DNA from: Parvibaculum sp.
GTDB taxonomy: Bacteria > Pseudomonadota > Alphaproteobacteria > Parvibaculales > Parvibaculaceae
Direction of reading: 5' to 3'
Assembly: GCA_019635955.1 (NCBI GenBank)
Contig: JAHBYL010000010.1
Location: 1 to 64,000 of the forward strand
Length of the DNA: 64,000 nt
This document shows positions 6,540 to 58,074 of this stretch, in pieces. The notes beneath the pieces are model-generated. The model made no database searches. It had not been told where the DNA came from and was given only the letters and a program-made list of their open reading frames with translations. Both the position numbers and the translations under genes were made by a program. Within the stretch, counting starts at the first letter, position 1. Each line of letters begins with the position of its first letter.

Positions 6540-6798
6540 ATCCCGACAGGGACGCGCGCCGCACCGGCGAGGCCCCCATGTGCCGCGCAACCTACGTCAG
6601 GTCCGCGGGGGCCGCAATCACCGGGAGGTCAAGGACTCGCGGGAGAATTTTGCCTTCCGCAATGATTAGGTCTAAATGTGTAGTCATACGCTCAAAGGTT
6701 GATATGGGTTGTATGATTCATCTTTCGGCTTGCTCGAGGCACCGCGCGGCATCTGCCGGGCCTGACAGCCTGTTTCGCTGCAACAGCGGGAGGCTGTG

Positions 6799-7452
6799 AT
6801 GCGCATTCTTGTCATGGGCGAGCAGCCAATCTTCTGCGAAGGGCTTTCCTCCATAGTGAACCGGCTTTATCCCGGTTGCGATCTCAAGCTCGGCGCAGGT
6901 CTGCGCAATGCGGCGCTGGCCGGCGGAAGCGATTATTCTCTCGCGCTTGTCGACATCGGCAATCCGACGGCACCGGCGGAACTCGATGCGCTGGCGGATT
7001 TCGCCTCGCGGACCAGTGCGCGCATCGTTGTGTTCAGCGATCGCCTGTCGCCCGGCTTCGTGCGCGATGTGATGGATATCGGCGTTGCCGGGTTCATTCC
7101 GAAAACGCTTGGCGTCAATCTCGCCGAAAGCGCGCTCCGTCTCGTCGAAATGGGCGGTCGATACGTCCCGGACATATTGCTCGCCCCTCAGGTGGAAGGT
7201 TTCGCCGAAGCGCCGCATTCCTTCGCCGCGGCGAGCCACCACAAGCTCACGCCGCGCCAGCGGGATGTGCTCGCCGAAATCGGAAAGGGCCGGTCGAACC
7301 AGGAAATTGCGCGCGTGCTCGGCATTTCCATCGCGACCGTCAAACTGCACGTCAATGCGATCCTGCAGGCGCTCGGCGTCCGCAACCGGACGGAAGCGGC
7401 GATCATTGCGCTTCGTGCGCAGGACTTGCGCACAGAGGAGGCGCCGGGCTGA
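6799..7452 (+). CDS. NarL/FixJ-type LuxR response regulator
   Basis: A 217-residue protein with an N-terminal receiver (1-120) and a C-terminal LuxR helix-turn-helix (about 150-205: LTPRQRDVLAEIGKGRSNQEIA, ISIATVKLHVNAILQALGV). The phospho-acceptor is Asp52 (LALVDIG) and the conserved lysine is in GFIPKTL. The acidic pocket usually written DD is here MGEQ, so one acid is missing and metal binding may be weak. ATG 6799 has GGGAGG five bases upstream; GTG 6796 is too close to it. No histidine kinase is adjacent. Its stop overlaps the next gene by 4 bp. Confidence 0.85.
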   Translation: MRILVMGEQPIFCEGLSSIVNRLYPGCDLKLGAGLRNAALAGGSDYSLALVDIGNPTAPAELDALADFASRTSARIVVFSDRLSPGFVRDVMDIGVAGFIPKTLGVNLAESALRLVEMGGRYVPDILLAPQVEGFAEAPHSFAAASHHKLTPRQRDVLAEIGKGRSNQEIARVLGISIATVKLHVNAILQALGVRNRTEAAIIALRAQDLRTEEAPG

Positions 7453-8411
7453 GCAAGCTGGGTCCAGGGCGCGTTCCTTTCGGGTGTCGCGGCGCGAAGG
7501 GGCTTCTCCTCGCGGCGTTCACGGCATGGCTTCTTTCGCCGATCTTCATTTCCACTTCCGGCAAGGCAGCGGACGATACTTCTGCCGCAGCGCAGGAGCG
7601 CACTGCGCCCGGCGCCGTTCTCCCCGATGAAGGCTGCCGGCTCGAGCAGGGAGAGGCCGCGGTCGTAACCGGTATTGTCGATGGCGATACGGTGGTCCTC
7701 GACGATGGGCGGGAAGTGCGCCTCAAGGGTATTCAGGCGCCGAAGCTGCCCCTCGGGCGCGCAGGCTTCGAACCATGGCCGCTCTCCGGCGAGGCTAAGG
7801 AGCGGCTGACGGAAATGGCCGAGGGCGAGACCGTTTCGCTACGCTACGGCGGCGCCAGGCTGGACCGCCATGGCCGTGTGCTCGCGCACGCCTTTGTCGC
7901 GCGCGCTGGCGGAGAAGTCTGGCTGCAGCAAGCGATGCTGAATGAGGGGCTCGCCCGGGTCTATACCTTTCCCGACAATCGGGCCTGCGCGGAGCAGCTT
8001 CTCGCCGCCGAACGGCAAGCGCGGTCGGCCGGCCTGGGCATATGGCAGGATCCGTTCTATGCGATCCGCGATGGGTCCGATGTTGCCGGCCTCAACCGGC
8101 ATGCCGGCCGGTTCGAACTCGTTGAGGGTAAAGTGCAACAAGCGGCGCTTGTTCGTGGCCGGCTCTATCTCAATTTCGGCGAAGACTATCGATCGGACTT
8201 CACGGTGACAGTACAGGAGCGCGACGTTAGGCTTTTCCGGAAGGACGAATCATGGGTGGCGCTGCTTGAGGCGGAAGGTGGAACGGCGCCATCGCTTGAG
8301 CGCCTGGCGGCGCGGACCATCCGGGTGCGCGGCTGGATTGGCCGGAACAATGGACCGGAAATTGTCGTCACACATCCCGAGCAGATCGAGTTTCTCGACA
8401 GGCAGGACTGA
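7449..8411 (+). CDS. exported staphylococcal-nuclease-like (SNase) domain protein, probably catalytically altered
   Basis: A protein of about 320 residues. After a hydrophobic leader (GLLLAAFTAWLLSPIFI) comes an SNase fold at residues about 70-190 (GIVDGDTVVLDDGREVRLKGI, DRHGRVLAHAFV, LNEGLARVYTF, GLGIWQDP), then a roughly 130-residue C-terminal domain with OB-like strands. Compared with staphylococcal nuclease, Arg35 (here Arg91) and Arg87 (Arg143) are kept, but Glu43 is Lys (QAPKL) and Asp40 is Gln. There is no ATG, GTG or TTG at the 5' end. The best start is CTG 7449, overlapping the TGA of the response regulator, with GAGGAGG upstream. Translational coupling is likely. Confidence 0.7.
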   Translation: MSKLGPGRVPFGCRGAKGLLLAAFTAWLLSPIFISTSGKAADDTSAAAQERTAPGAVLPDEGCRLEQGEAAVVTGIVDGDTVVLDDGREVRLKGIQAPKLPLGRAGFEPWPLSGEAKERLTEMAEGETVSLRYGGARLDRHGRVLAHAFVARAGGEVWLQQAMLNEGLARVYTFPDNRACAEQLLAAERQARSAGLGIWQDPFYAIRDGSDVAGLNRHAGRFELVEGKVQQAALVRGRLYLNFGEDYRSDFTVTVQERDVRLFRKDESWVALLEAEGGTAPSLERLAARTIRVRGWIGRNNGPEIVVTHPEQIEFLDRQD

Positions 8412-13849: not shown

Positions 13850-16800
13850 TCAGCTGGTCCGGTTGCGCTCTTTCAGGATGGCAAGCTTGGCGAAGGGCGA
13901 ATCCGGATCGGGTTCGCGGTCGCGAGGCTTCGGCTTGCTGAAGCCATAGTCGCGCGGCTTGTCATGCTTGGCATCCCGGCGCGGCGGCTTGCCGCCATGA
14001 CGATGCTTGTTGTCCTGCTTGCGGCCTTCGTGCTTGCCACCCTCATTGCGGCGTTCGCCTTCGCGGCGCTCGCCCGGCTGTCCCGGCGCGGCGGCTTCGG
14101 TGCGATTGCGGTCGCGGCGGGGCTTGCGGTTTGCCTCGCCTCCGTGACGGCGGCGCGAGGGGCGCCAGATTTCCATCTCGACGGGTTCGGCAGGCGGTGC
14201 TTCCACCGCTGCGGCTTCCGCGCTGCCTTCCTGCGGCGCAGCTTCGGCTTCCGGCTCTGCAACCGCTTCGGCTTCCGGCTCTGCAGCCGCTTCGGCAGCT
14301 ACAGGTTCTTCGGCCACAGGTTCTTCCGTCACGGCCTCGGGCGTCGCCTCTTCTTCTTCCGCGGGTGGTGCGTCCGCTGCGGGCGCTTCCGCCGCGGGCT
14401 CGGCGGCAGCGGGTGCTTCCGCAACAGGGGCCGCCGGCGCGGGCGGCACGATCTTTTCGACCTGCGAGCGATAGCCGAGGCCGCGAAGCAGGCCCGCGAA
14501 TTCCTCGCCCGAACAGCCGACAAGCGACATCAGGTCCGGCGTCACCACGAAGCCGCCATTATAGGCGCGGGATGCGATCACCGGGCGAATGAGATCGGCG
14601 ACGCGCTCCAGCATGTCGAGGCGCACGGCGCGCGTCCCGCAAACGCGGAAGCCCAGCGCGGCATAGAAGCCTTGGGGCGCGGCAGGTTCCGCCGGAACCG
14701 AGGTCAGGCCCGGTGCGGGCGCGGCGGGCAGGCCCGCGAAGGGCTCATCGGCATCCTTGCGGGCGAGCGCCCAGAGCGTGAGTTTCAGACGCGCGGGTGC
14801 GGGCTTCAGCAGCGCCGGAATGAAAACGGAATAGGCCCCGAAGCGTACGCCATGCTTGCGGAGCTGGCCGCGTGCCGCCTGGTCGAGGGAGCGGAGATCG
14901 TCGGCCACGGCTTCGCGCGCAAGCGTGCCGAGATTCTCGACAAGCTGGAAGGCGATGCCGCGCGCCAGTCCTTCGATATCGGTTGCATCGCGCAGCGCAA
15001 CGAGCGGCGCAAGAACCTGCGTCACATGCATCTTCAGCCATGCGTCGAGGCGGGACTGCACGGCTTCCTTCGCGGGTCCATGAAGTTGCTCGCCGGTGAT
15101 GAGCTCCACGCGCGGCTGAAGAATATTGTCGCTGCCCCGGAGTTCGGCGACCGGGTGCCCGGCCCAGACAATGCGGCCATGTTCCGACAGCGCAATGTCG
15201 GCGTCGGGCGCAGTCGTCAGGCGTTCCGCGCGGGAGGCGATTTCGGAGACCAGCGCCTGGTCGGCGGCGGCGCGGAGAACCCGGGCCTGCTCGCCGTCCG
15301 CGCGGGGATCCGGCACAAACACAAAACCTTCGAGATGGCCGGCATACTCGCCTTCGACCAGTACTTCGCCATCGCCATTTACAGCCGCCATAAGATCCTC
15401 GTTCTGGCGCAGACGTTTCATCAATACGCTGGTGCGCCTGTCGACAAACCGCTGCGTCAATCGCTCGTGAAGCGCGTCGGACAGCCTATCCTCTATATTA
15501 CGCGCGCGCTCCTGCCAATGCGCAGGATTGTGCAGCCAATCCGCCCTGTTTGCCACATAGGACCATGTCCGCATATGTGCGAGGCGCGTGGCAAGCACAT
15601 CGATGTCGCCATCGGAACGGTCGAGCTTGCCGATCTGGCGATCGAGCCAGTCATCGGGGATGCGTCCGGGCGTATCACCGCCCGGTTCCATCAGGAAGAG
15701 ATAGAGCCGGGCGAGAAGCGAGGCATGCTCGCTGGCGAGCGTCTTGCGGAAGTCGGGCACCTGCGCCACTTCCCAGAGGCGGCGGATCGCGTGGGGCGCA
15801 CGGGCAAGGGCGGCGATTTCCGGCATCCGGCTCATGCGTTCGAGCGCCTCGAGGTCGTCTGCGGTCTGCGCGCGCATCAGGCCCGGTCTGCCGGGCGGCG
15901 CCTCGAGGCTGCGTATCAGGGCCTGAACCGAGGTGAAGTCGAGATGCGGATTTCGCCACTGGAAGACGCGTTCCGGTTCGAACTGATGGTTCTCGATGCG
16001 TGAAATGACGTCTTCAGGGAGAGCGGCGGCATCGCCTGTCGTGCCGAAGGTGCCGTTGTTCATGTACCGGCCGGCGCGGCCCGCGATTTGCGCGAGTTCT
16101 GCAACGCCGAGAGGGCGCAGGTGGCGGCCGTCGAATTTCTGCGTGGAGGCAAAGGCGACATGGTCGACATCCATGTTGAGGCCCATGCCGATTGCGTCCG
16201 TGGCCACGAGAAAGTCCACTTCGCCCGACTGGTAGAGCGCCACCTGTGCGTTGCGGGTGCGCGGGCTCAAGGCGCCCATCACCACAGCCGCACCGCCGCG
16301 CTGGCGGCGGATCAGTTCCGCGATCGCGTAAACCTGATCGGCGGAGAAGGCGACGATCGCCGACCGGCGCGGCAGCCGCGTGATCTTTTTCGAGCCGGTC
16401 CATGAAAGTTCCGAAAATCGCGGCCGGCTCACGAAGCGCGTGTCGGGCAGGAGTTTCTGGATCAGGCTGCGGACGGTTTCCGAGCCGAGCATCATGGTCT
16501 CGGAGCGTCCGCGCGATCGCAGCAGGCGGTCGGTGAAGGTGTGGCCGCGTTCGCGGTCGGCTGCGAGCTGGATTTCGTCGATGGCGAGGAACTCGACCTC
16601 GCGGTCGAGCGGCATGGCCTCGACGGTGCAGACATAATAACGCGCCGAGGCAGGGAGGATTTTCTCTTCTCCGGTAATCAGCGCGACGGCCCGCGCGCCT
16701 TTCGCTTTCACGACCCTGTCATAAACCTCACGGGCGAGAAGCCGGAGCGGCAGGCCGATCATGCCGCTCTCATGCGCCATCATCCGCTCGATGGCGAGAT

Positions 16801-16906
16801 GCGTCTTGCCCGTATTGGTCGGCCCGAGCACGGCCGTGATGCGGCGGCGCTCCGCGATGCCGTCGCGCAGTCTTTCGTCGGGAGAATGAAGGGGGCCGGT
16901 ACTCAT
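13850..16906 (-). CDS. SUV3-like DExH RNA/DNA helicase with acidic and basic C-terminal tails
   Basis: A 1018-residue protein. The N-terminal two-thirds match the SUV3/mitochondrial-degradosome helicase type: Walker A GPTNTGKTH (residues about 27-35), DEIQ box, SGEVDFLVATDAIGMGLNMDV and QIAGRAGR (motif VI). After residue about 800 come an Ala/Glu/Pro-rich stretch (EEPVAEEPVA repeats) and then an Arg/Lys/His-rich end (RRDAKHDKPRD). Such tails are common in RNA-processing proteins and may bind nucleic acid or a nuclease partner. The repetitive DNA at about 14230-14340 encodes the acidic tail. Confidence 0.9.
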   Translation of the reverse strand: MSTGPLHSPDERLRDGIAERRRITAVLGPTNTGKTHLAIERMMAHESGMIGLPLRLLAREVYDRVVKAKGARAVALITGEEKILPASARYYVCTVEAMPLDREVEFLAIDEIQLAADRERGHTFTDRLLRSRGRSETMMLGSETVRSLIQKLLPDTRFVSRPRFSELSWTGSKKITRLPRRSAIVAFSADQVYAIAELIRRQRGGAAVVMGALSPRTRNAQVALYQSGEVDFLVATDAIGMGLNMDVDHVAFASTQKFDGRHLRPLGVAELAQIAGRAGRYMNNGTFGTTGDAAALPEDVISRIENHQFEPERVFQWRNPHLDFTSVQALIRSLEAPPGRPGLMRAQTADDLEALERMSRMPEIAALARAPHAIRRLWEVAQVPDFRKTLASEHASLLARLYLFLMEPGGDTPGRIPDDWLDRQIGKLDRSDGDIDVLATRLAHMRTWSYVANRADWLHNPAHWQERARNIEDRLSDALHERLTQRFVDRRTSVLMKRLRQNEDLMAAVNGDGEVLVEGEYAGHLEGFVFVPDPRADGEQARVLRAAADQALVSEIASRAERLTTAPDADIALSEHGRIVWAGHPVAELRGSDNILQPRVELITGEQLHGPAKEAVQSRLDAWLKMHVTQVLAPLVALRDATDIEGLARGIAFQLVENLGTLAREAVADDLRSLDQAARGQLRKHGVRFGAYSVFIPALLKPAPARLKLTLWALARKDADEPFAGLPAAPAPGLTSVPAEPAAPQGFYAALGFRVCGTRAVRLDMLERVADLIRPVIASRAYNGGFVVTPDLMSLVGCSGEEFAGLLRGLGYRSQVEKIVPPAPAAPVAEAPAAAEPAAEAPAADAPPAEEEEATPEAVTEEPVAEEPVAAEAAAEPEAEAVAEPEAEAAPQEGSAEAAAVEAPPAEPVEMEIWRPSRRRHGGEANRKPRRDRNRTEAAAPGQPGERREGERRNEGGKHEGRKQDNKHRHGGKPPRRDAKHDKPRDYGFSKPKPRDREPDPDSPFAKLAILKERNRTS

Positions 16907-35681: not shown

Positions 35682-35846
35682 GCCGTTTCTCGCTTCGAAG
35701 CTCATCCTGGGCCTACTTCCGTACTTGAGAGGTTCGGAGCCGGATCGCACGTTCCCGGCTCCATCGAAATTCATATGGCCGCACGCTTCCGGGCCTTGTA
35801 CCGCCCTATGGGACGAGTAACGGGCCTGCCTTCGCCGCTGCCGCCG

Positions 35847-36530
35847 TTAAGAGCAGTAGCCGCTTTTCCGGAGGTAATCGTAGGCCTGAATGACCTTGCG
35901 CAGACGCTCCTCGGCAGACCTGTCCCCGCCATTGGCGTCCGGATGGTGCCTTTTTACAAGTTCCTTATACCGTGCCTTGATCTCATTCAAGGACGCGGAA
36001 GCAGGCAGGTCCAGCGTGTCCAGCGCCTGCTGCTCAAGCGCCCGGGGCTTCCGCCGGGTTTCCCGCGGTTCCGGGCTCTCCGGCCGGGCCTCATCGCCAA
36101 AAAAGCCAAAGCTGTCGCGAAAAGGCGATCCCTGCCGGAGGCGGGAGGCGAAGGGCGATCCGAAGGCGGCCTTGGCCGCGTTCACGCCAAGCCCCCAGGT
36201 CGGGCGGTGGCCGGTCAGCGCCTCGCGCTGGAAGGCGGCGACATCGGCATCGCTCATGCCCTTGAAGAAATCGTAGCTCTGGTTGAACTCGCGGATGTGA
36301 CTTTCGCAAAACCAGCTGTACTGGCCGGAGGCACCGGCATCGAGAGGGCCTGCCGGTGCTGCGGGGTTGATGCGGGGCGCCCGGAAGCGTCCCTGTTCCC
36401 TGCATCCTGCCCATTCGCAGCGCTTCGGCGCCTCCTCGCGCATCATGCGGCGGACATGCGGCGGCTGTTCCACGCCGCGCTGCTTGCGAGGGGCGATCCT
36501 GATGGAATCGAAATATTTCGAGGTCGGTTT
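35847..36530 (-). CDS. J-domain protein (DnaJ-like, C-terminal J domain)
   Basis: A 227-residue protein. The J domain is at the C-terminus (residues about 170-227: LPASASLNEIKARYKELVKRHHPDANGGD), with the HPD motif that stimulates DnaK. The N-terminal part begins with the conserved KYFDSIRI stretch, includes CEWAGCREQG (two Cys, possibly metal) and FCESHIREFNQSYDFFKG. No ATG is available there; GTG 36530 starts the conserved region, while TTG 36563 would add 11 residues. It is divergent from bolA, as in many alphaproteobacteria. Confidence 0.85.
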   Translation of the reverse strand, partial: KPTSKYFDSIRIAPRKQRGVEQPPHVRRMMREEAPKRCEWAGCREQGRFRAPRINPAAPAGPLDAGASGQYSWFCESHIREFNQSYDFFKGMSDADVAAFQREALTGHRPTWGLGVNAAKAAFGSPFASRLRQGSPFRDSFGFFGDEARPESPEPRETRRKPRALEQQALDTLDLPASASLNEIKARYKELVKRHHPDANGGDRSAEERLRKVIQAYDYLRKSGYCS

Positions 36531-36616
36531 CACGTTCAAATTATGGGTTGGCTCGACGTGCAAAACAAGGAAGCATGCGCCTCTTCGGGTTAACGAACAA
36601 AGTAACGGATTTCTCC

Positions 36617-36901
36617 ATGGCGGTCGCCGAGACTATCAGACGCAAGCTCGAACAGGCTCTCTCGCCGGTGACCCTGGAAATCGTGGACGAGTCCCATCTC
36701 CACAAGGGCCATGCAGGCCACCGGCCCGAAGGCGAAACGCATTTCAGGGTGACGGTGGTCTCCAGCGCTTTTTCCGGACGCTCGAGGGTCGAGAGGCAGA
36801 GGCTCATCATCTCTGCGCTCCGGGAGGAAATGGGACATCCCATTCACGCGCTGTCGATGAAGGCGTTGACGCCGGAAGAGGCGGCGGGTTCCGCCAACTA
36901 G
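36617..36901 (+). CDS. bolA: BolA-family protein
   Basis: A 94-residue protein with the BolA fold: IRRKLEQALSPVTLEIVDESHLHKGHAGH, then GETHFRVTVVSSAFSGRSRVERQRLI and the conserved IHALSMKALTPEE. The conserved histidines near HKGHAGH and HALS are ligands of iron-sulphur clusters shared with monothiol glutaredoxins. It acts in iron-sulphur trafficking or iron regulation. ATG 36617 starts the family core; an in-frame ATG at 36575 would add a non-homologous extension. Confidence 0.93.
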   Translation: MAVAETIRRKLEQALSPVTLEIVDESHLHKGHAGHRPEGETHFRVTVVSSAFSGRSRVERQRLIISALREEMGHPIHALSMKALTPEEAAGSAN

Positions 36902-36910
36902 ATTGGCGCC

Positions 36911-38191
36911 CTATTTTTTCGGATGACGCTCGGGCGTGACGCGAAGCTGCGCGATCTGGTTGCGCTGGCGGCGCAAAATCTCGAAGCGGAAGCCATGGAA
37001 GGTGAAGGTCTGCCCGATATCGGGAATCGTCCGCGCCTCGTGGATCACGAGGCCCGCAACGGTCGTCGCTTCGTCATCCGGCAAGGACCAGTCGAAGGCG
37101 CGGTTGAGGTCCCGGATCGGCACCGAGCCGTTGACGACGACGCTGCCATCGGCTTGGGCGCGGACGCCCGCCACTTCGAGGTCGTGCTCGTCCGAAATAT
37201 CGCCGACGATCTCTTCCAGAATGTCTTCAAGCGTGATGAGGCCCATCAGCACGCCATACTCGTCCACCACCAGCGCGAAATGCGACTTCTGCTTGAGGAA
37301 GGCATTGAGCTGATCCTGCAGGGTGGTCGTGTCCGGTACGAACCAGGGCTTGAAGGCAAGCGCCGGAATGTCGATCGCGTCGGGGCGCCAGCCAGCGCTC
37401 GAAAGGGCGCGCAGAAGCTCCTTGGCGTGAAGCACGCCCACGATGTTTTCCTGTTCGTTGCGCCATAGCGGGATGCGCGTATGGGGGCTTGCAAGCGCCT
37501 GGGCGATGATTTCCGAGTTCGGCTGGCCGGCATCAATCATGATGATGTTCTTGCGGTGAACCATGATGTCGCTGACTTCGAGGTCGCGCAGGTCGAGGAT
37601 GCCGCCCAGCATGTCACGGTCGATCTTTACGACCGAACCTTCGTGATGGTGAAGGTTGATGGCGCCACGCAGTTCTTCGTGAGCGGAGAGAACCTGCTGC
37701 GTGTCGTCCACATTCAGGCCGAAAATGCGGAAGGTGTTGCGGACGATGAACTGCACCGCGGCTGTCACGGGGGCGAAGAGGAAGATGATGAGCCGCAGGG
37801 GCTGCGAAACGGCGAGCGCGACGCGGTCCGTGTTCGTTATTGCAAATGTCTTCGGCGCGACTTCGGAGAAGATGAGAACAACGGCCGTCATCACCAGCGT
37901 CGCGTAGACGACGCCAGCATCGCCGAAGAGGGCAAGGAAAAGACTTGTCGCCAGCGCCGAGGCAAGAATGTTGACGAGATTGTTGCCGAGAAGGATTGCG
38001 CCGATCAGCCGCTCGCGATCATCGGTGAGCCGCAGCACGACGCGCGCCCTCCGGCTTCCTTCTTCGGCAAGACGATGCATCCGCGCGCGCGAGGCGGCGG
38101 TCAGCGCAGTTTCGGAGCCGGAGAAGAACGCCGAAAGAACGAGCAGCAACACAATGGCGCCGATAATGGCGCCGAGCCCGAGCGAAACCAT
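36911..38191 (-). CDS. CNNM/HlyC-CorC family transporter with CBS pair
   Basis: A 426-residue protein. Four N-terminal membrane helices form a DUF21 domain (residues about 5-180: LVLSAFFSGSETALTAASRARM, ILLGNNLVNILASALATSLF, FSEVAPKTFAI). Next come a CBS pair (about 200-325, VSDIMVHRKNIIMIDAG, ALVVDEYGVLMGLITLEDILEEIVGDI) and a CorC_HlyC domain (about 340-425). These proteins are linked with magnesium/cobalt efflux. It is 2 bp downstream of aroB on the same strand, so it is co-transcribed with aroK-aroB. Confidence 0.9.
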   Translation of the reverse strand: MVSLGLGAIIGAIVLLLVLSAFFSGSETALTAASRARMHRLAEEGSRRARVVLRLTDDRERLIGAILLGNNLVNILASALATSLFLALFGDAGVVYATLVMTAVVLIFSEVAPKTFAITNTDRVALAVSQPLRLIIFLFAPVTAAVQFIVRNTFRIFGLNVDDTQQVLSAHEELRGAINLHHHEGSVVKIDRDMLGGILDLRDLEVSDIMVHRKNIIMIDAGQPNSEIIAQALASPHTRIPLWRNEQENIVGVLHAKELLRALSSAGWRPDAIDIPALAFKPWFVPDTTTLQDQLNAFLKQKSHFALVVDEYGVLMGLITLEDILEEIVGDISDEHDLEVAGVRAQADGSVVVNGSVPIRDLNRAFDWSLPDDEATTVAGLVIHEARTIPDIGQTFTFHGFRFEILRRQRNQIAQLRVTPERHPKK

Positions 38192-39913: not shown

Positions 39914-40187
39914 TGGCCCTTCCGGTCCATTGGCCGCTCCGGGGCCGCGCCGGGGCCGTTCTGGCGGTCTTAACCTTGTTGCCCTAGTCTCCGGCCGGAA
40001 CTCCGAGGCAAGACGGCTATGGTAGCCCAATTGTTGCCGGGGTTGCAGTCTTGCCGGGGCTGTAGATAAGGCTTTCGGAGCGCCGCGTCGCGCCCAAATT
40101 TCGCCGCAAGCGGGCCCTAAAGCTCAGACTCTGTTCCGGCGGCATGAACCCGAAGGGTCCCATGAAGGCCCCAGAAGAGGAAATATC

Positions 40188-44681: not shown

Positions 44682-44705
44682 GGTGATCTCCTTTCTTTCT
44701 TCAGC

Positions 44706-45119
44706 TCAGTGGGTTTTCGGGGCGCACCACCAGGCGAGCGCGGCCGCGATCACGGGCGGCGCGAACACGCCGGGGAGGTCGATCAACAGGTGAGAAAGCG
44801 GAAGCCGCGCCGCGGCTATGTCCCAGACATGCAGGAGGGCATGGAGGGTGAGATAGAGCGTCACGGCGCCGAGCAGCGGCAGGGCGGCGGAAGGCCAGCG
44901 GATTGCCCCGAGGCTGAGAAGCCCCAGCATCAGATAGGCGCAGCCGATATCGCGCACGAAATGCGGGTTGTAGGGGCCCGTATTGGGGACGCCGGCTACG
45001 CTCGCATACCAGCCTGCGGGATCGGCAAGCATCCAGAGTCCGTTGCCGAGCCAGATTACGGCGAATAGGCCAAGGGCGGCCGTCTTGAGAGGCGGGTGGC
45101 GAAGGGCGCTCGGGGGCAT
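44706..45119 (-). CDS. small integral membrane protein of the ECF41 operon
   Basis: A 137-residue protein with about four membrane helices (AALGLFAVIWLGNGLWML, IGCAYLMLGLLSLGAIRW, LPLLGAVTLYLTLHALLHVWDI, FAPPVIAAALAWWC). It is not recognised further; a DoxX-like relation is possible. ATG 45119 has AAGGAG seven bases upstream. It is the first gene of the operon, just behind the ECF41 promoter, so it is probably a regulated target. Confidence 0.7.
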   Translation of the reverse strand: MPPSALRHPPLKTAALGLFAVIWLGNGLWMLADPAGWYASVAGVPNTGPYNPHFVRDIGCAYLMLGLLSLGAIRWPSAALPLLGAVTLYLTLHALLHVWDIAAARLPLSHLLIDLPGVFAPPVIAAALAWWCAPKTH

Positions 45120-45154
45120 CAAGGGCTCCTTGGGTTGTGGCTTTCCTCCCCGAA

Positions 45155-45181
45155 GACGAGGCAGGGGGCCTGTTTGTGACA
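45155..45181 (-). promoter_or_regulatory. ECF41-type promoter TGTCACA-N16-CGTC
   Basis: Reading the minus strand, TGTCACA (45181-45175) is followed by exactly 16 bases and CGTC (45158-45155), which is the published ECF41 consensus as I recall it. It lies 36 bp upstream of the membrane protein ATG and so would drive all three genes, including the sigma factor itself. Confidence 0.85.
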
Positions 45182-45354
45182 GGCCGGGGCCGCGCTGCGG
45201 GAAGCGCAGGAATCCGCCGATTCCTCATATGCAACGGCAGGTTGACAAGGGCGCGGGGGCGGGCCAGTGTGCCGCGCACTTGCATATGAGGGGGCCCCTC
45301 GAGGCCCATGGCCGGTTCCGCCCGTGGCGGTCCGCGGGGAGTATCCGGGACGCA

Positions 45355-46314
45355 ATGCATACCTATCTCGACTTCGAGAAGCCGATAGCCGAACTGGAAG
45401 GCAAGGTGCAGGAGCTCCGGCTCCTCGCCCAGGACGATCCGTCGGTCAGCATCGGCGACGAGGTTGCCAAGCTGGAGCTCAAGGCGGCCCAGCTCCTTCA
45501 GGACACCTACAGCTCGCTTACGCCCTGGCAGAAGGTTCAGGTGGCGCGGCATCCGGCGCGGCCGCATTTCCTCGATTACGTCGAGAGGCTGGTCGAGGAT
45601 TTCACACCGCTGGCCGGCGACCGCGTGTTCGGCGAGGACGCGGCGATCGTCGGTGGCATCGGCCGGTTCCGCGGCCGCTCGGCCATCTTCATCGGCCATG
45701 AAAAGGGCTCGGACACGAAGGGCCGCATCAAGCACAATTTCGGCATGGCGAAGCCCGAGGGCTATCGCAAGGCGATCCGCCTCATGGACATGGCGGAACG
45801 CTTCCAGATTCCGGTGGTGACGCTTGTCGATACGTCGGGCGCCTATCCGGGCATGGAAAGCGAGGAGCGCAGCGTCGCCGAGGCGATCGCGCGGTCGACG
45901 GATCGCTGCCTCTCGCTCGGCGTGCCTCTCGTCTCGGTCGTGATCGGTGAAGGCGGCTCGGGCGGCGCGGTGGCGCTGGCCTGCGGCAACCGCGTGCTGA
46001 TGCTCGAGCATTCGATCTACAGCGTGATCTCGCCCGAAGGAGCGTCGTCCATCCTGTGGCGGAGTTCCGACAAGGCCAAGGATGCGGCGACGGCCATGAA
46101 GATTACCGCGCAGAACCTGCACGAGCTCGGTGTGATCGATCGTGTATTGCCGGAGCCCGTGGGCGGCGCCCATCGCGAACGGAACCAGATGATCAAGGAA
46201 GCGGGCGACGCCGTGGCCGAAGAGCTCAAGGGGCTCGAAAAGCTCGATGCCGACTCGCTCCGCCGCACCCGCCGCGAGAAATTTCTCGCCATGGGACGTC
46301 TCGGGTTGTCCTGA
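45355..46314 (+). CDS. accA: acetyl-CoA carboxylase carboxyltransferase subunit alpha
   Basis: A 319-residue protein that with AccD transfers the carboxyl group from biotin to acetyl-CoA, the committed step of fatty-acid synthesis. It opens with MHTYLDFEKPIAELEGKV, then GRFRGRSAIFIGHEKG, TLVDTSGAYPGMESEERSVAEAIAR, and the oxyanion-hole stretch IGEGGSGGAVAL. The ATG at 45355 starts the conserved region. It is divergent from the ECF41 operon and is a single-gene unit. Confidence 0.97.
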   Translation: MHTYLDFEKPIAELEGKVQELRLLAQDDPSVSIGDEVAKLELKAAQLLQDTYSSLTPWQKVQVARHPARPHFLDYVERLVEDFTPLAGDRVFGEDAAIVGGIGRFRGRSAIFIGHEKGSDTKGRIKHNFGMAKPEGYRKAIRLMDMAERFQIPVVTLVDTSGAYPGMESEERSVAEAIARSTDRCLSLGVPLVSVVIGEGGSGGAVALACGNRVLMLEHSIYSVISPEGASSILWRSSDKAKDAATAMKITAQNLHELGVIDRVLPEPVGGAHRERNQMIKEAGDAVAEELKGLEKLDADSLRRTRREKFLAMGRLGLS

Positions 46315-52706: not shown

Positions 52707-55427
52707 TCAGATCGCGCCGTGGCAATGCTTGAACTTCTTGCCCGAGCCGCAAGGGCAGGGCGCATTGCGCGAGACCTTGCCCCAGGTGCGCGGGTCGTTC
52801 GGGTCCACGGCTATACCCGGATCGTTGCGCACCGTGCGCTGAAGCGTCTCGCCATCGGCCATCTCATCCTCACCCGTCATGGGGTCGGTGTGATGGGCAT
52901 GCATTTCCGGCAGCTGTTCGTCTTCGAGCCGCGGCGCCTGTTCGCGCGTGACGAACTGGGCGACCGAGAGCTGGCGCGACACGTCCTCGCGCAGCCTTGC
53001 AAGCAGGCTTTCGAAAAGCTCGAACGCTTCGGACTTGTATTCGTTGAGCGGATCGCGCTGTGCATAGCCGCGCAGGCCCACCGCCTGGCGCAGATGATCG
53101 AGCATCAGCAGGTGGTCGCGCCAATGATGGTCGAGCGTCTGGAGGAGCACCGCCTTCTCGACCTGGCGCATGAGATCGGGGCCGACCTGCGCGGCCTTGG
53201 CCGCCATGTAGCGGTCGGAGGCGGAGCGGATGCGCTCGCGGATTTCCTCGTCGGCAATGCCTTCTTCCTCGCCCCATTCGACGATGGGAAGGTCGAGGTC
53301 GAGCGTCTTCTGCACCTCTTCCTTGAGGCCCGCGAGGTCCCACTGCTCGGCATAGGCCTTTTCGGGGACATGCTTTGCCACCAGATCGTCGATGACCTGG
53401 TTGCGCATGTCGTCCACCGTCTCCGACACATCTTCGGCGCGCATCAGTTCGATGCGCTGCTCGAAGATCGCGCGGCGCTGGTCGTTCATCACATTGTCGA
53501 ATTTCAGCAGGTTCTTGCGGATGTCGTAGTTCCGCGCTTCCACCTTCTGCTGCGCCTTTTCGAGCGCCTTGTTGATCCAGGGGTGGACGATGGCTTCGCC
53601 TTCCTCGAGGCCGAGCTTCTGCAGCATGCCGTCCATGCGGTCGGTGCCGAAGATGCGCATCAGGTCGTCTTCGAGAGAGAGGTAGAATTTCGAACGGCCG
53701 GGGTCGCCCTGACGGCCCGAGCGGCCGCGAAGCTGGTTATCGATGCGGCGGCTTTCATGCCGCTCGGTGCCGATCACGTAAAGACCGCCGGCGGCAAGCG
53801 CTTCGGCCTTCTTCGCTTCGACATCGGCGCGGATTTCCTCCGTCTTGCGGGCAAGCGCCGCCGGGTCCTCGATGCCCGCCGTCTCGTCGGCGATGCGCAT
53901 TTCAAGATTGCCGCCGAGCTGAATGTCCGTGCCGCGGCCCGCCATGTTGGTGGCGATGGTGACGGCGCCGGGAACGCCCGCCTGCGCCACGATATGCGCT
54001 TCCTGCTCGTGGTAGCGTGCGTTCAGCACCTTGTGCTTCACCTTCTTCTTTTTCAGCAGTTCGGCGAGCGTTTCGGATTTCTCGATCGAGGTCGTGCCGA
54101 CGAGAACGGGCTGGCCGCGCTTCTCGCATTCCTCGATCTCGACGATCATCGCCTCGTATTTCTCGCGCGCGGTCCGGTAGACCTCGTCGTCTTCGTCCAC
54201 GCGGGCGACCGGCTTGTTGGTCGGGATCTCGATCACCTCGAGGCCGTAGATGTCGCCGAATTCCGTCGCTTCCGTCAGCGCCGTGCCGGTCATGCCCGAG
54301 AGCTTCTCGTACATGCGGAAATAGTTCTGGAAGGTGATGGAGGCAAGCGTCTGGTTTTCCGGCTGGATCTGCACGCGCTCCTTGGCTTCGAGCGCCTGGT
54401 GCAAGCCGTCGGAATAGCGGCGGCCCTCCATCATGCGGCCGGTGAACTCGTCGATGATGACGACCTTGCCTGCCTTGACGATGTAGTCCTTGTCCTTCTG
54501 GAAGAGCTTGTGGGCCCTGAGCGCGTTGTTCACATGATGAACGATCGAGATGTTCTCGATATCGTAGAGGCTGCCCTCCGCAAGGATGCCGCGTTCCCTG
54601 AGAATCTGTTCGATGCGCTCGTTGCCGTCTTCGGTGAGGTTCACCGTGCGCTGCTTCTCGTCGAGTTCGTAGTCCTCGTCGCTGATCAGCGGAATCACGT
54701 CGTCGATCGAGAGATAGAGGTCCGACTTGTCGTCGAGGGGGCCTGAAATGATGAGCGGCGTGCGCGCCTCGTCGATCAGGATCGAGTCCACTTCGTCCAC
54801 GATGGCGAAGTGATGACCGCGCTGGACCATTGCGGCCAGCTGATACTTCATATTGTCACGCAGATAGTCGAAGCCGAGCTCGTTGTTCGTCGCGTAGGTA
54901 ATGTCGGCGGCATAGGCCTCGCGGCGCTGGTTGTCGTCGAGCCCGTGCAGGATGACGCCCACCTCGAGGCCGAGGAAGCGATGCACCTGGCCCATCCATT
55001 CCGCGTCGCGCTTAGCCAGATAGTCGTTCACGGTGACGATGTGGACGCCCTTGCCGGGCAGCGCGTTCAGATAGGCGGCAAGCGTCGAGACGAGTGTCTT
55101 GCCTTCGCCGGTCTTCATTTCCGAGATATTGCCCTCGTGGAGCACCATGCCGCCGATGAGCTGGACATCGTAATGGCGCTGGCCGAGCGCGCGCTTGGCC
55201 GCTTCCCGGACGGCTGCGAAGGCCTCGGGCAGGAGTTCGTCGAGCGTGGTTCCGCCCGCGAGCCGGGCGCGGAACTCGACGGTCTTTGCCTTCAGGGCCT
55301 CGTCGCTAAGGGAGGCCATATCCGCTTCGAGCGCGTTGATCGCGTCGACGCGGGCTTTGTATGCCTTGATCTTCCGGTCGTTGGAGGAGCCGAAAAGACG
55401 CTTGGCGAGCGCGCCAAAGCCTGCCAT
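52707..55427 (-). CDS. secA: preprotein translocase ATPase SecA
   Basis: A 906-residue Sec motor. Walker A is [13 protein letters not shown] (about residue 104), [19 protein letters not shown] follows, the helicase-like motifs appear at [13 protein letters not shown], and the C-terminal zinc-binding tail [14 protein letters not shown] is complete, so SecB binding is expected. ATG 55427 starts the known [13 protein letters not shown] opening; the frame runs further upstream without homology. The 289 bp up to the isomerase gene hold divergent promoters. Confidence 0.97.
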
Positions 55428-55716
55428 CAGGTCAAATTCCTCTTGCGGTGCGCCTCCGATGTAAGGGGGCATACCATGCTTGTCAATCGAACGAGGCACC
55501 CCCGTAGCGCCCGGAGAGCCGAGCGAAACCGCCGGATTTCGTCCATTTCCACCTTGGGTAGGCCCGCTCTGTGGCGCTTGTGTGGCTCACGGGCGCTCGC
55601 CATTATGGCCCGCCCAAATTCTGCCGCTTCGTGCCGGTTGTCTCGGGCCGTTTGCAAACGCCCATGGCGGCATTTGGCCGCTGCCTGCTTCTGGTTTCAA
55701 AAGGAAGGATCGTCCC

Positions 55717-56597
55717 ATGCCCTTGCCCGCCCGCCTTTTCGCCGTTCTGGCGCTGGCCATGCCGCTTCTCGGGCCAGGGGGCGCGTCCGCCCAGGGGGCG
55801 CGTCCGCCCAGGAGGAGGTTGCCGATGAAGTCGTCGCGACCGTCGACGGCACGCCGATCCGCTATTCGGACCTCTCATTCGCGGATGAGGAGTTGAGCGC
55901 GGCGCTGGCCCGGCTCGAGCCCAATGCCCGGTTCCAGTTCCTGCTCGGGCACCTGATCGACCGGCGGATCGTGGCGCTTGCCGCCGAGAAGCAGAATGCG
56001 GGCGACGATCCGGCGGTGAAGCGGCGTCAGGAATATTTCAACGAGAAGGCCCTGCGCGACTTCTACTGGGTTCAGCTCATGCAGGACCGGGTGAGCGATG
56101 AATCCGTCCGCGCCTGGTATGACAAGAATATTGCATCCGCGCCGCCCGAGCAGGAGGCGCATGCGCGCCACATCCTGGTCGATACGCAGGAACAGGCGGC
56201 GAAGATCGCTGCCGAGATCGCAGGCGGCAAGAGCTTTGAGGAAGCCGCCAACGAACATTCGAAGGATGGCAGCGGCGCCGATGGCGGCGATCTCGGCTGG
56301 TTCAGCAAGGAAGACATGGTCGAGCCCTTCGCGAATGCCGTCTTCTCGATGGAGGCGGGAGATATTTCCGCCCCCGTCCAGTCGCCCTTCGGCTGGCATC
56401 TGATCGAGGTCATCGCCTTCCGCAAAATGGAGAAGCCGAGCTTCGAGGAAGCGGAGGAAGACATCTTCCGTCTGCTCGCCCGCGAAGAGGGGCAGAAGCT
56501 CATGGAAAGTTTGCGCAAGGACGCAAAGATCGAGATTATCGGCGTCGGCGAAGCAGCACCGTCGGGCGGACGTCCGCAGATCGTGCCGCAGGAATAA
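55717..56597 (+). pseudogene. parvulin-type peptidyl-prolyl isomerase, frame broken by a 17-bp duplication
   Basis: Starting at ATG 55717 (AAGGAAGG upstream), the frame encodes a signal peptide (MPLPARLFAVLALAMPLLGP, GGASAQ) and then runs out of frame at the duplication 55774-55807, ending at 55896. From there frame 3 continues through the whole mature protein: an N-terminal SurA-like part, then the PpiC rotamase (HARHILVDTQEQ, DGGDLGWFSKEDMVEPF, SPFGWHLIEVI) to a stop at 56597. Removing one 17-bp unit restores a 287-residue periplasmic isomerase. The rest of the sequence shows no further damage, so a recent mutation, sequencing error or slippage site are all possible. Confidence 0.8.
55774..55807. 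repeat. 17-bp tandem duplication in the isomerase signal-peptide region
   Basis: The unit CCAGGGGGCGCGTCCGC appears twice in direct succession (55774-55790 and 55791-55807), followed by a partial third copy CCAGG. Its length is not a multiple of three, and each unit contains a run of five G. It sits at the end of the signal-peptide coding region, where GGASAQ would be encoded. Confidence 0.95.
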
Positions 56598-56628: not shown

Positions 56629-58074
56629 ATGGCGGTCAGGAAAAGTGCGAAAGTTTCGGTGAAGCCGAAGCGCAAGGTCAGCGGCAAGGCCAAGGCGAAG
56701 CCGCACAGCAAGGCGAAGCAGAGCCGCGCAAAGCGCAAGGTCGCGAAGGCGAAGAAGCCCGTTGCCGCCGCTCCGAAGGCAGCGGCGCCGGCGAAAGCGA
56801 GCCGCAAGGCGGCAAAGAAGCCGGTGAAGAAGGCCGCAGCCAAGGTTTCGCCGCTCGCGCCGAAGACCTATGCGAAGCTTCCGCCCGTCGGCGGCGTCCT
56901 GCTCGGCACTGCCGAGGCGGGCATCAAGTATAAGGGCCGGACGGATCTTCTCGTCGCCAGAATGGCGGAAGGCACGCAGGCCGCCGGCGTCTTCACGACG
57001 TCGAAGACAGCTTCCGCGCCCGTCGAATGGTGTCGCAACAGCCTCGCCGAAGGCGGCGAGGGCAGGATGCTCGTCGTCAATTCGGGTAATTCCAACGCCT
57101 TTACCGGCAAGGCGGGCGTGGCGACGGTCAAGGCGACGGCGGCGGCCGCCGCGCAGGCCGGTAATTGCCGCCAGAAGGACGTGTTCATCGCCTCGACCGG
57201 CGTGATCGGCCAGCCGATGGACCCCGAACCCGTGGTGAAGGGCATCGAGACTGCGCTCGCCTCCGCCTCCGAGGACAAATGGAGCGATGCCGCGCGCGCC
57301 ATCATGACGACCGACACCTATCCGAAGCTTGCAACGCGCAAGGTCAGGGTGGGCGGCGCGGAAGTCACGATCAACGGCATCGCCAAGGGCTCGGGCATGA
57401 TCGCGCCCGACCTTGCCACCATGCTCGTCTTCATCTTCACCGATGCGGCAATCCCGGCGAAAATCCTGCAGACCCTGCTGTTGCTCAGCGTGCGCGACAG
57501 TTTCAACGCCATCACGGTCGACAGCGACACATCCACATCCGACAGCGTGCTCGTTTTCGCGACGGGCGCCGCCATGAAGGACGAGGCTCCGGTCACCCGC
57601 GCGAGCGATCCGCGGCTGCGCGAGTTCCGCGCCGCTTTCGACGATCTGATGCTCGATCTGGCACACCAGGTCGTGAAGGATGGAGAGGGCGCGACGAAGT
57701 TCATCCGCATCGCGGTGGCGGGCGCGCAAAGCCACCAGGCGGCGCGGCGCATCGGCATGGCCATCGCCAATTCGCCGCTCGTGAAAACCGCGATCGCGGG
57801 CGAGGATGCGAATTGGGGCCGGATCGTCATGGCGGTCGGCAAGTCGGGCGAGGCGGCGGATCGCGACAAGCTCGCCATCCGCATTGGCGGCGTCGATGTC
57901 GCAAAGAGCGGCATGGCGGTTCCGGGCTATGACGAAACCCCGGTCGCGAAACACATGAAGGGGTCCGATATCGGCATCGAGGTCGATGTCGGCGTCGGCA
58001 AGGCGTCGGCCACGGTCTGGACCTGCGATCTCACCTACGAATATATCCGCATCAATGCGGATTACCGGAGCTGA
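56629..58074 (+). CDS. argJ: glutamate N-acetyltransferase/amino-acid acetyltransferase ArgJ with basic N-terminal tail
   Basis: A 481-residue protein. The ArgJ core starts near residue 74 (SPLAPKTYAKLPPVGGVLLG) and includes the autoproteolysis site DLATMLVF, with the nucleophilic Thr at 264, and SGNSNAFTG. It transfers acetyl between ornithine and glutamate in the arginine pathway. Residues 1-73 are Lys/Ala/Pro/Arg-rich (KAKAKPHSKAKQSRAKRKVAK) without homology to ArgJ. The upstream isomerase is on the same strand with a 31-bp gap, and no better internal ATG is seen before the core. Confidence 0.92.
   Translation: MAVRKSAKVSVKPKRKVSGKAKAKPHSKAKQSRAKRKVAKAKKPVAAAPKAAAPAKASRKAAKKPVKKAAAKVSPLAPKTYAKLPPVGGVLLGTAEAGIKYKGRTDLLVARMAEGTQAAGVFTTSKTASAPVEWCRNSLAEGGEGRMLVVNSGNSNAFTGKAGVATVKATAAAAAQAGNCRQKDVFIASTGVIGQPMDPEPVVKGIETALASASEDKWSDAARAIMTTDTYPKLATRKVRVGGAEVTINGIAKGSGMIAPDLATMLVFIFTDAAIPAKILQTLLLLSVRDSFNAITVDSDTSTSDSVLVFATGAAMKDEAPVTRASDPRLREFRAAFDDLMLDLAHQVVKDGEGATKFIRIAVAGAQSHQAARRIGMAIANSPLVKTAIAGEDANWGRIVMAVGKSGEAADRDKLAIRIGGVDVAKSGMAVPGYDETPVAKHMKGSDIGIEVDVGVGKASATVWTCDLTYEYIRINADYRS

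Follow-up and report, generated by a model that had tools for sequence, protein, structure and literature searches.

A 17-bp tandem duplication that disrupts a parvulin gene in a Parvibaculum draft genome looks like an ordinary mutation or a local assembly slip rather than a genetic switch

In a stretch of 64,000 nucleotides from a Parvibaculum sp. genome (the window), the gene of an exported parvulin-type PPIase (PpiC type) is interrupted by a tandem duplication of 17 bp, which shifts the reading frame exactly at the boundary between the signal peptide and the mature protein. This raises the question whether the repeat is a device, that is, a phase-variable switch or a site of programmed frameshifting, or whether it is a recent null mutation or an error of sequencing or assembly. 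The evidence compiled here favours an ordinary, recent mutation (or a slip of the local assembly) over a genetic switch, and both a switch and a programmed slip are unlikely. The features of the locus are as follows:

52707-55499, minus strand: secA, the divergent neighbour, intact (Pfam)
55717-55896, plus strand: 5' frame of the disrupted gene, with the ATG, the signal peptide MPLPARLFAVLALAMPLLGPGGASAQ, an out-of-frame tail and a premature stop (59 aa by translation)
55774-55790, plus strand: first copy of the 17-bp unit CCAGGGGGCGCGTCCGC (Tandem Repeats Finder and genome search)
55791-55807, plus strand: second copy of CCAGGGGGCGCGTCCGC, absent from all relatives examined
55803-56597, plus strand: mature part of the parvulin-type PPIase, 264 aa plus stop, with the PPIC-type domain (Pfam and comparison with the nearest relative, G002)
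55808-55812, plus strand: CCAGG, a partial third copy, which bordered the single unit before the duplication (CCAGG-N12-CCAGG)
56629-58074, plus strand: argJ, the downstream neighbour, intact (Pfam)

The gene starts with the ATG at 55717, which is preceded by AAAAGGAAGGA, and ends at 56597. The frame of the signal peptide (MPLPARLFAVLALAMPLLGPGGASAQGARPPRRRLPMK...) runs into a stop at 55896 after 59 residues, and the frame of the mature part (SAQEEVADEVV...) is open up to the stop at 56597. The exact duplication occupies 55774-55807, and the 17-bp period continues over 55774-55812. Tandem Repeats Finder described the array with a period of 17, 2.3 copies, a match of 100% and a score of 78, and it reported no other 100%-match array with a period of at least 13 in the 64-kb window. 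A perfect tandem pair of 17 bp would hardly ever occur by chance, and CCAGGGGGCGCGTCCGC is found nowhere in the 3.26-Mb assembly beyond its two tandem copies. Without one unit, the open reading frame comprises 864 nt and encodes 287 aa, exactly the length of the intact gene of G002. Repeat finder and translation thus bear out two statements of the original prediction, namely that the unit is present twice and shifts the frame, and that removal of one unit yields a 287-residue exported PpiC protein; its positions and calculations are correct as well.

The identity of the product is clear from Pfam, which assigned a PPIC-type domain (PF13616 with 84.2 bits at a cut-off of 22.5, PF00639 with 81.5 bits at a cut-off of 21.7) and, also above its cut-off, PF13145 to the mature part. 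The mature sequence is related to SurA, PrsA and HP_0175. Like PrsA, SurA and Helicobacter HP_0175, the protein would combine a signal peptide, an N-terminal region and one PPIC-type PPIase domain, but unlike these proteins the copy in the window has been separated by the frameshift from the signal peptide that precedes it. Alternative starts for the mature frame offer no convincing way around the break: they are limited to an ATG at 55605, which lacks an evident ribosome-binding site and whose product would be without a signal peptide, and to TTGs that are weak or far away. Upstream of ppiC, the stretch 55571-55630 around GGCGCTTGTGTGGC...CATTATGGCC is strongly conserved across diverged relatives and may be a candidate promoter region of the gene, judged by conservation of the sequence; a sigma-70 scan of the upstream region yielded no consensus match.

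Is the disrupted state shared with other genomes? The named relatives are metagenome-assembled genomes (MAGs) of Parvibaculum or Parvibaculaceae, and a contig scan gave no second genome of the same species. The nearest relative, G002 (JAHBYJ010000001.1, Parvibaculaceae MAG ACE_PRO21), has 95% DNA identity over the locus. Its gene (...CTCGGGGCAGGGGGCGCCGCCGCCCAGGAGG...) contains a single unit and encodes an intact protein of 287 aa (MPLPARLFAVLALAMPLLGAGGAAAQEEVADEV...), with the same start and signal peptide as the gene in the window, and in frame. In all other relatives that hold the 5' end, signal peptide and mature part likewise lie in one frame, which is broken here by the 17-bp shift. Of 28 loci scanned, that of the window alone has a tandem repeat at this junction. 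Among 26 other genomes of the genus, three had no match, each of them at most 79% complete, and the sole match in a plasmid collection was partial, with 69% identity, to a sequence from Methylobacterium. Since the relatives have a single in-frame copy, the duplicated state is derived and private to this assembly.

The mature part is 98% identical to that of G002 and differs from it at 21 of 792 nt, with a dN of 0.008 and a dS of 0.095. The resulting dN/dS of about 0.09 implies that the mature frame was under strong purifying selection until recently and that the break is recent. An old pseudogene is ruled out by this ratio together with the intact mature frame; the gene is intact in all relatives, and Pfam verified that secA and argJ are intact, so that these parts of the original prediction also stand.

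It should be noted that the surroundings of the duplication are unusually similar to G002. Between 55623 and 56167, the only differences are a 1-nt indel at 55659 and the changes within the unit, which leaves roughly 530 bp of ppiC and its upstream region otherwise identical; about 19 substitutions would be expected over the tract at the mean divergence of the window of about 3.6%. This near-identity suggests that the tract has recently been shared between the lineages by recombination, as far as sequence comparison can tell. Further tracts nearly identical to G002 are located at 35807-37151 and 6760-7758. The changes within the unit comprise the duplication and three substitutions (at 55774, and CG versus GT), the CG/GT change being folded into gaps by BLAST and visible in the MAFFT alignment. 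The probability that three random substitutions all fall within those 22 bp is about 7e-5, a value calculated post hoc. This confinement to the unit is compatible with a single complex event at the site, with conversion of a short patch, or with an erroneous consensus in either assembly. The serine codon of the window genome is that of two further relatives, G021 and G010, so that some of the change may have occurred on the side of G002.

How could the second unit have arisen? The single-unit ancestor, CCAGG-GGGCGCGTCCGC-CCAGG, would have had two 5-bp homologies 17 bp apart at the signal-peptide end of the gene, and replication slippage between the two CCAGG motifs would yield a second 17-bp unit. 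Border homology of at least 5 bp is found for 0.75% of random 17-bp duplications in the window, and on this ground we infer slippage between the two motifs. The site is nevertheless not special, since microhomology is common: the window contains 3302 pairs of at least 5 bp with a period of 8-40. An inverted repeat within the unit (GGGCG-CGTC-CGCCC) is short but could promote slippage; the predicted fold of the stretch containing the unit was no better than that of shuffled DNA. The flanking homology (CCAGG-N12-CCAGG) and the single-copy ancestral state in relatives are what is expected of a microhomology-mediated duplication. Similar cases are fission yeast ssp1, where microhomology-mediated tandem duplications arise inside coding genes (reviewed in PMC13207564), and lrp of Xenorhabdus nematophila, in which spontaneous tandem duplications of 26-116 bp occur among diverse mutations (PMC6786866). 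In these genes, as in ppiC, a short coding segment is doubled head-to-tail and the gene is disrupted, and ssp1 shares with ppiC the few bp of microhomology at the borders. Unlike those cases, the ppiC duplication is known from one genome only, and there is no observation of reversion or of a mixed population.

Taken together, the most probable reading, held with reasonable though not high confidence, is a recent, private slippage duplication of 17 bp that has probably caused a loss of function of the parvulin gene. The duplication is inferred to be a true mutation of the sampled cells that would abolish export as well as synthesis of the mature isomerase; loss of one unit could revert the gene, as is true for any two-copy tandem repeat. 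Of the possibilities listed in the original prediction, the recent null mutation is therefore favoured: the gene is otherwise that of a normal exported PpiC protein, it was under selection until recently, and it is intact in the relatives.

The competing explanation that survives best is an artefact, in which contig or read ends that overlap by 22 bp were joined on the 5-bp CCAGG, or the consensus is wrong, and the real gene is normal with one unit. Joining on the shorter overlap instead of the 22-bp overlap would give exactly the 39-bp array, the assembly has draft status (201 contigs, with 86.8% completeness and 5.4% contamination), the duplication is missing from every relative, and the substitutions relative to G002 are clustered at the same site. 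However, ordinary reads can span a 39-bp array, both units contain the same genome-specific bases, unlike two joined strain variants, and contigs C1 and C2 are free of N runs. In addition, coding frameshifts were not in excess in about 202 kb. An artefact is thus a minority explanation, unlikely but deserving some weight.

The last argument is based on an indel survey of two contigs, C1 and C2, of which about 202 kb could be compared with G002 by alignment, with frame breaks recognized from the codon phase of substitutions on either side of an indel, a procedure that needs enough substitutions per gene. The total was 87 indels in 59 clusters, three of which were consistent by phase with a coding frame break in this assembly. 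One (C2, 71311, outside the window; about 7312 in locus L055) is a 5-bp tandem duplication (CCGTT) in the short gap between two genes that we take to be ispG and prfA, and a second (C1, 129368) lies between presumed pyrH and tsf genes, both being intergenic by the gene calls; at the third (C1, 70607), open reading frames end and start in both genomes. No coding frameshift besides that of ppiC was confirmed among the 59 clusters, and a generally raised level of frameshifting is ruled out for these two contigs.

Further length differences from G002 lie inside the window. An 11-bp tandem repeat of 2.5 copies at 39932-39958 has a 10-bp insertion relative to G002 at 39945, just upstream of the likely start of aroK. 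A 24-bp array of about 2.3 copies (GCTTCGGCTTCCGGCTCTGCAACC) at 14241-14296, within the minus-strand open reading frame 13850-16906, differs in length from G002 by 42 bp at 14273, a multiple of three, and is thus an in-frame variable repeat. In a minus-strand open reading frame of 490 aa (44701-46173), for which Pfam gave no match, a 1-nt indel at 45151 alters the frame of G002, so that it may be G002 that carries the break.

Much less probable than an artefact is phase variation, in which cells of a population would switch the exported foldase off by gaining a 17-bp unit and on again by losing it. The ppiC array shares with the contingency loci based on simple sequence repeats the position early in the coding frame and a unit that is not a multiple of three, and deletion of one of the two perfect direct copies could restore the frame. 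Moreover, the microhomology duplications in coding genes of fission yeast are described as reversible (PMC13207564). In contrast, contingency loci contain many copies of a unit of 1-6 bp, in a multi-copy or hypermutable repeat that is variable or conserved in relatives, whereas ppiC has just two copies of a 17-mer in an array that is conserved in no relative; the relatives lack a tandem repeat at the site and never have more than one unit. The gene encodes a housekeeping-type periplasmic foldase and is neither a surface nor a restriction gene. The variation of Xenorhabdus lrp is also instructive: it was formerly taken for phase variation, and its duplications showed no complete reversion to a functional lrp sequence (PMC6786866). 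Hence the suggestion of a phase-variable gene has found no support, and the comparison of the relatives' loci revealed no sign of use as a switch. A recently born switch, in which one-unit cells would export the foldase, two-unit cells would not, and slippage at CCAGG would keep both forms, is, if anything, slightly more improbable still.

A programmed or compensatory -1 frameshift on the second G5 run, which would produce the full-length protein with six additional residues (GGASAQ twice), is barely credible. In its favour, the two frames overlap without a stop codon, and at G GGG GCG (heptamer at 55794) the GGG codon in the P-site could pair again after a shift to the -1 frame. However, the A-site would be mispaired, and a strict and a relaxed search of the zero frame from 55717 to 55896 found no canonical slippery heptamer of the form X XXY YYZ. 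The RNA downstream is no more stable than shuffled sequences (z = +0.83 in a fold model without pseudoknots), and the arrangement is neither present in nor needed by any relative. With canonical heptamer, unusual downstream structure and conservation all absent, the proposed -1 slip finds no support. An equally negligible chance attaches to the proposal that a unit with a true length of 18 nt lost one G in sequencing, leaving a gene in frame with six extra residues. Each unit does have a G5 run, but G002 likewise has 17 nt and a G5 run in its single unit, so that a plain duplication gives 17 + 17 with no lost base, and the two units of the window are identical to each other.

The locus is mainly a cautionary case: relatives are the best yardstick for a repeat that breaks a frame in a single draft genome, and here they have one intact copy. 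Judging from gene content, loss of the foldase may possibly be tolerated, since a PPIC-type domain is encoded by two more genes of the same genome (on contigs C35 and C1), as was also found in the five relatives searched. If the duplication is real, the allele to be sought in population data is known, and the locus would show clearly how a micro-duplication of the slippage type can inactivate the gene of a conserved exported foldase, here in an environmental alphaproteobacterium that retains two more genes with a parvulin domain.
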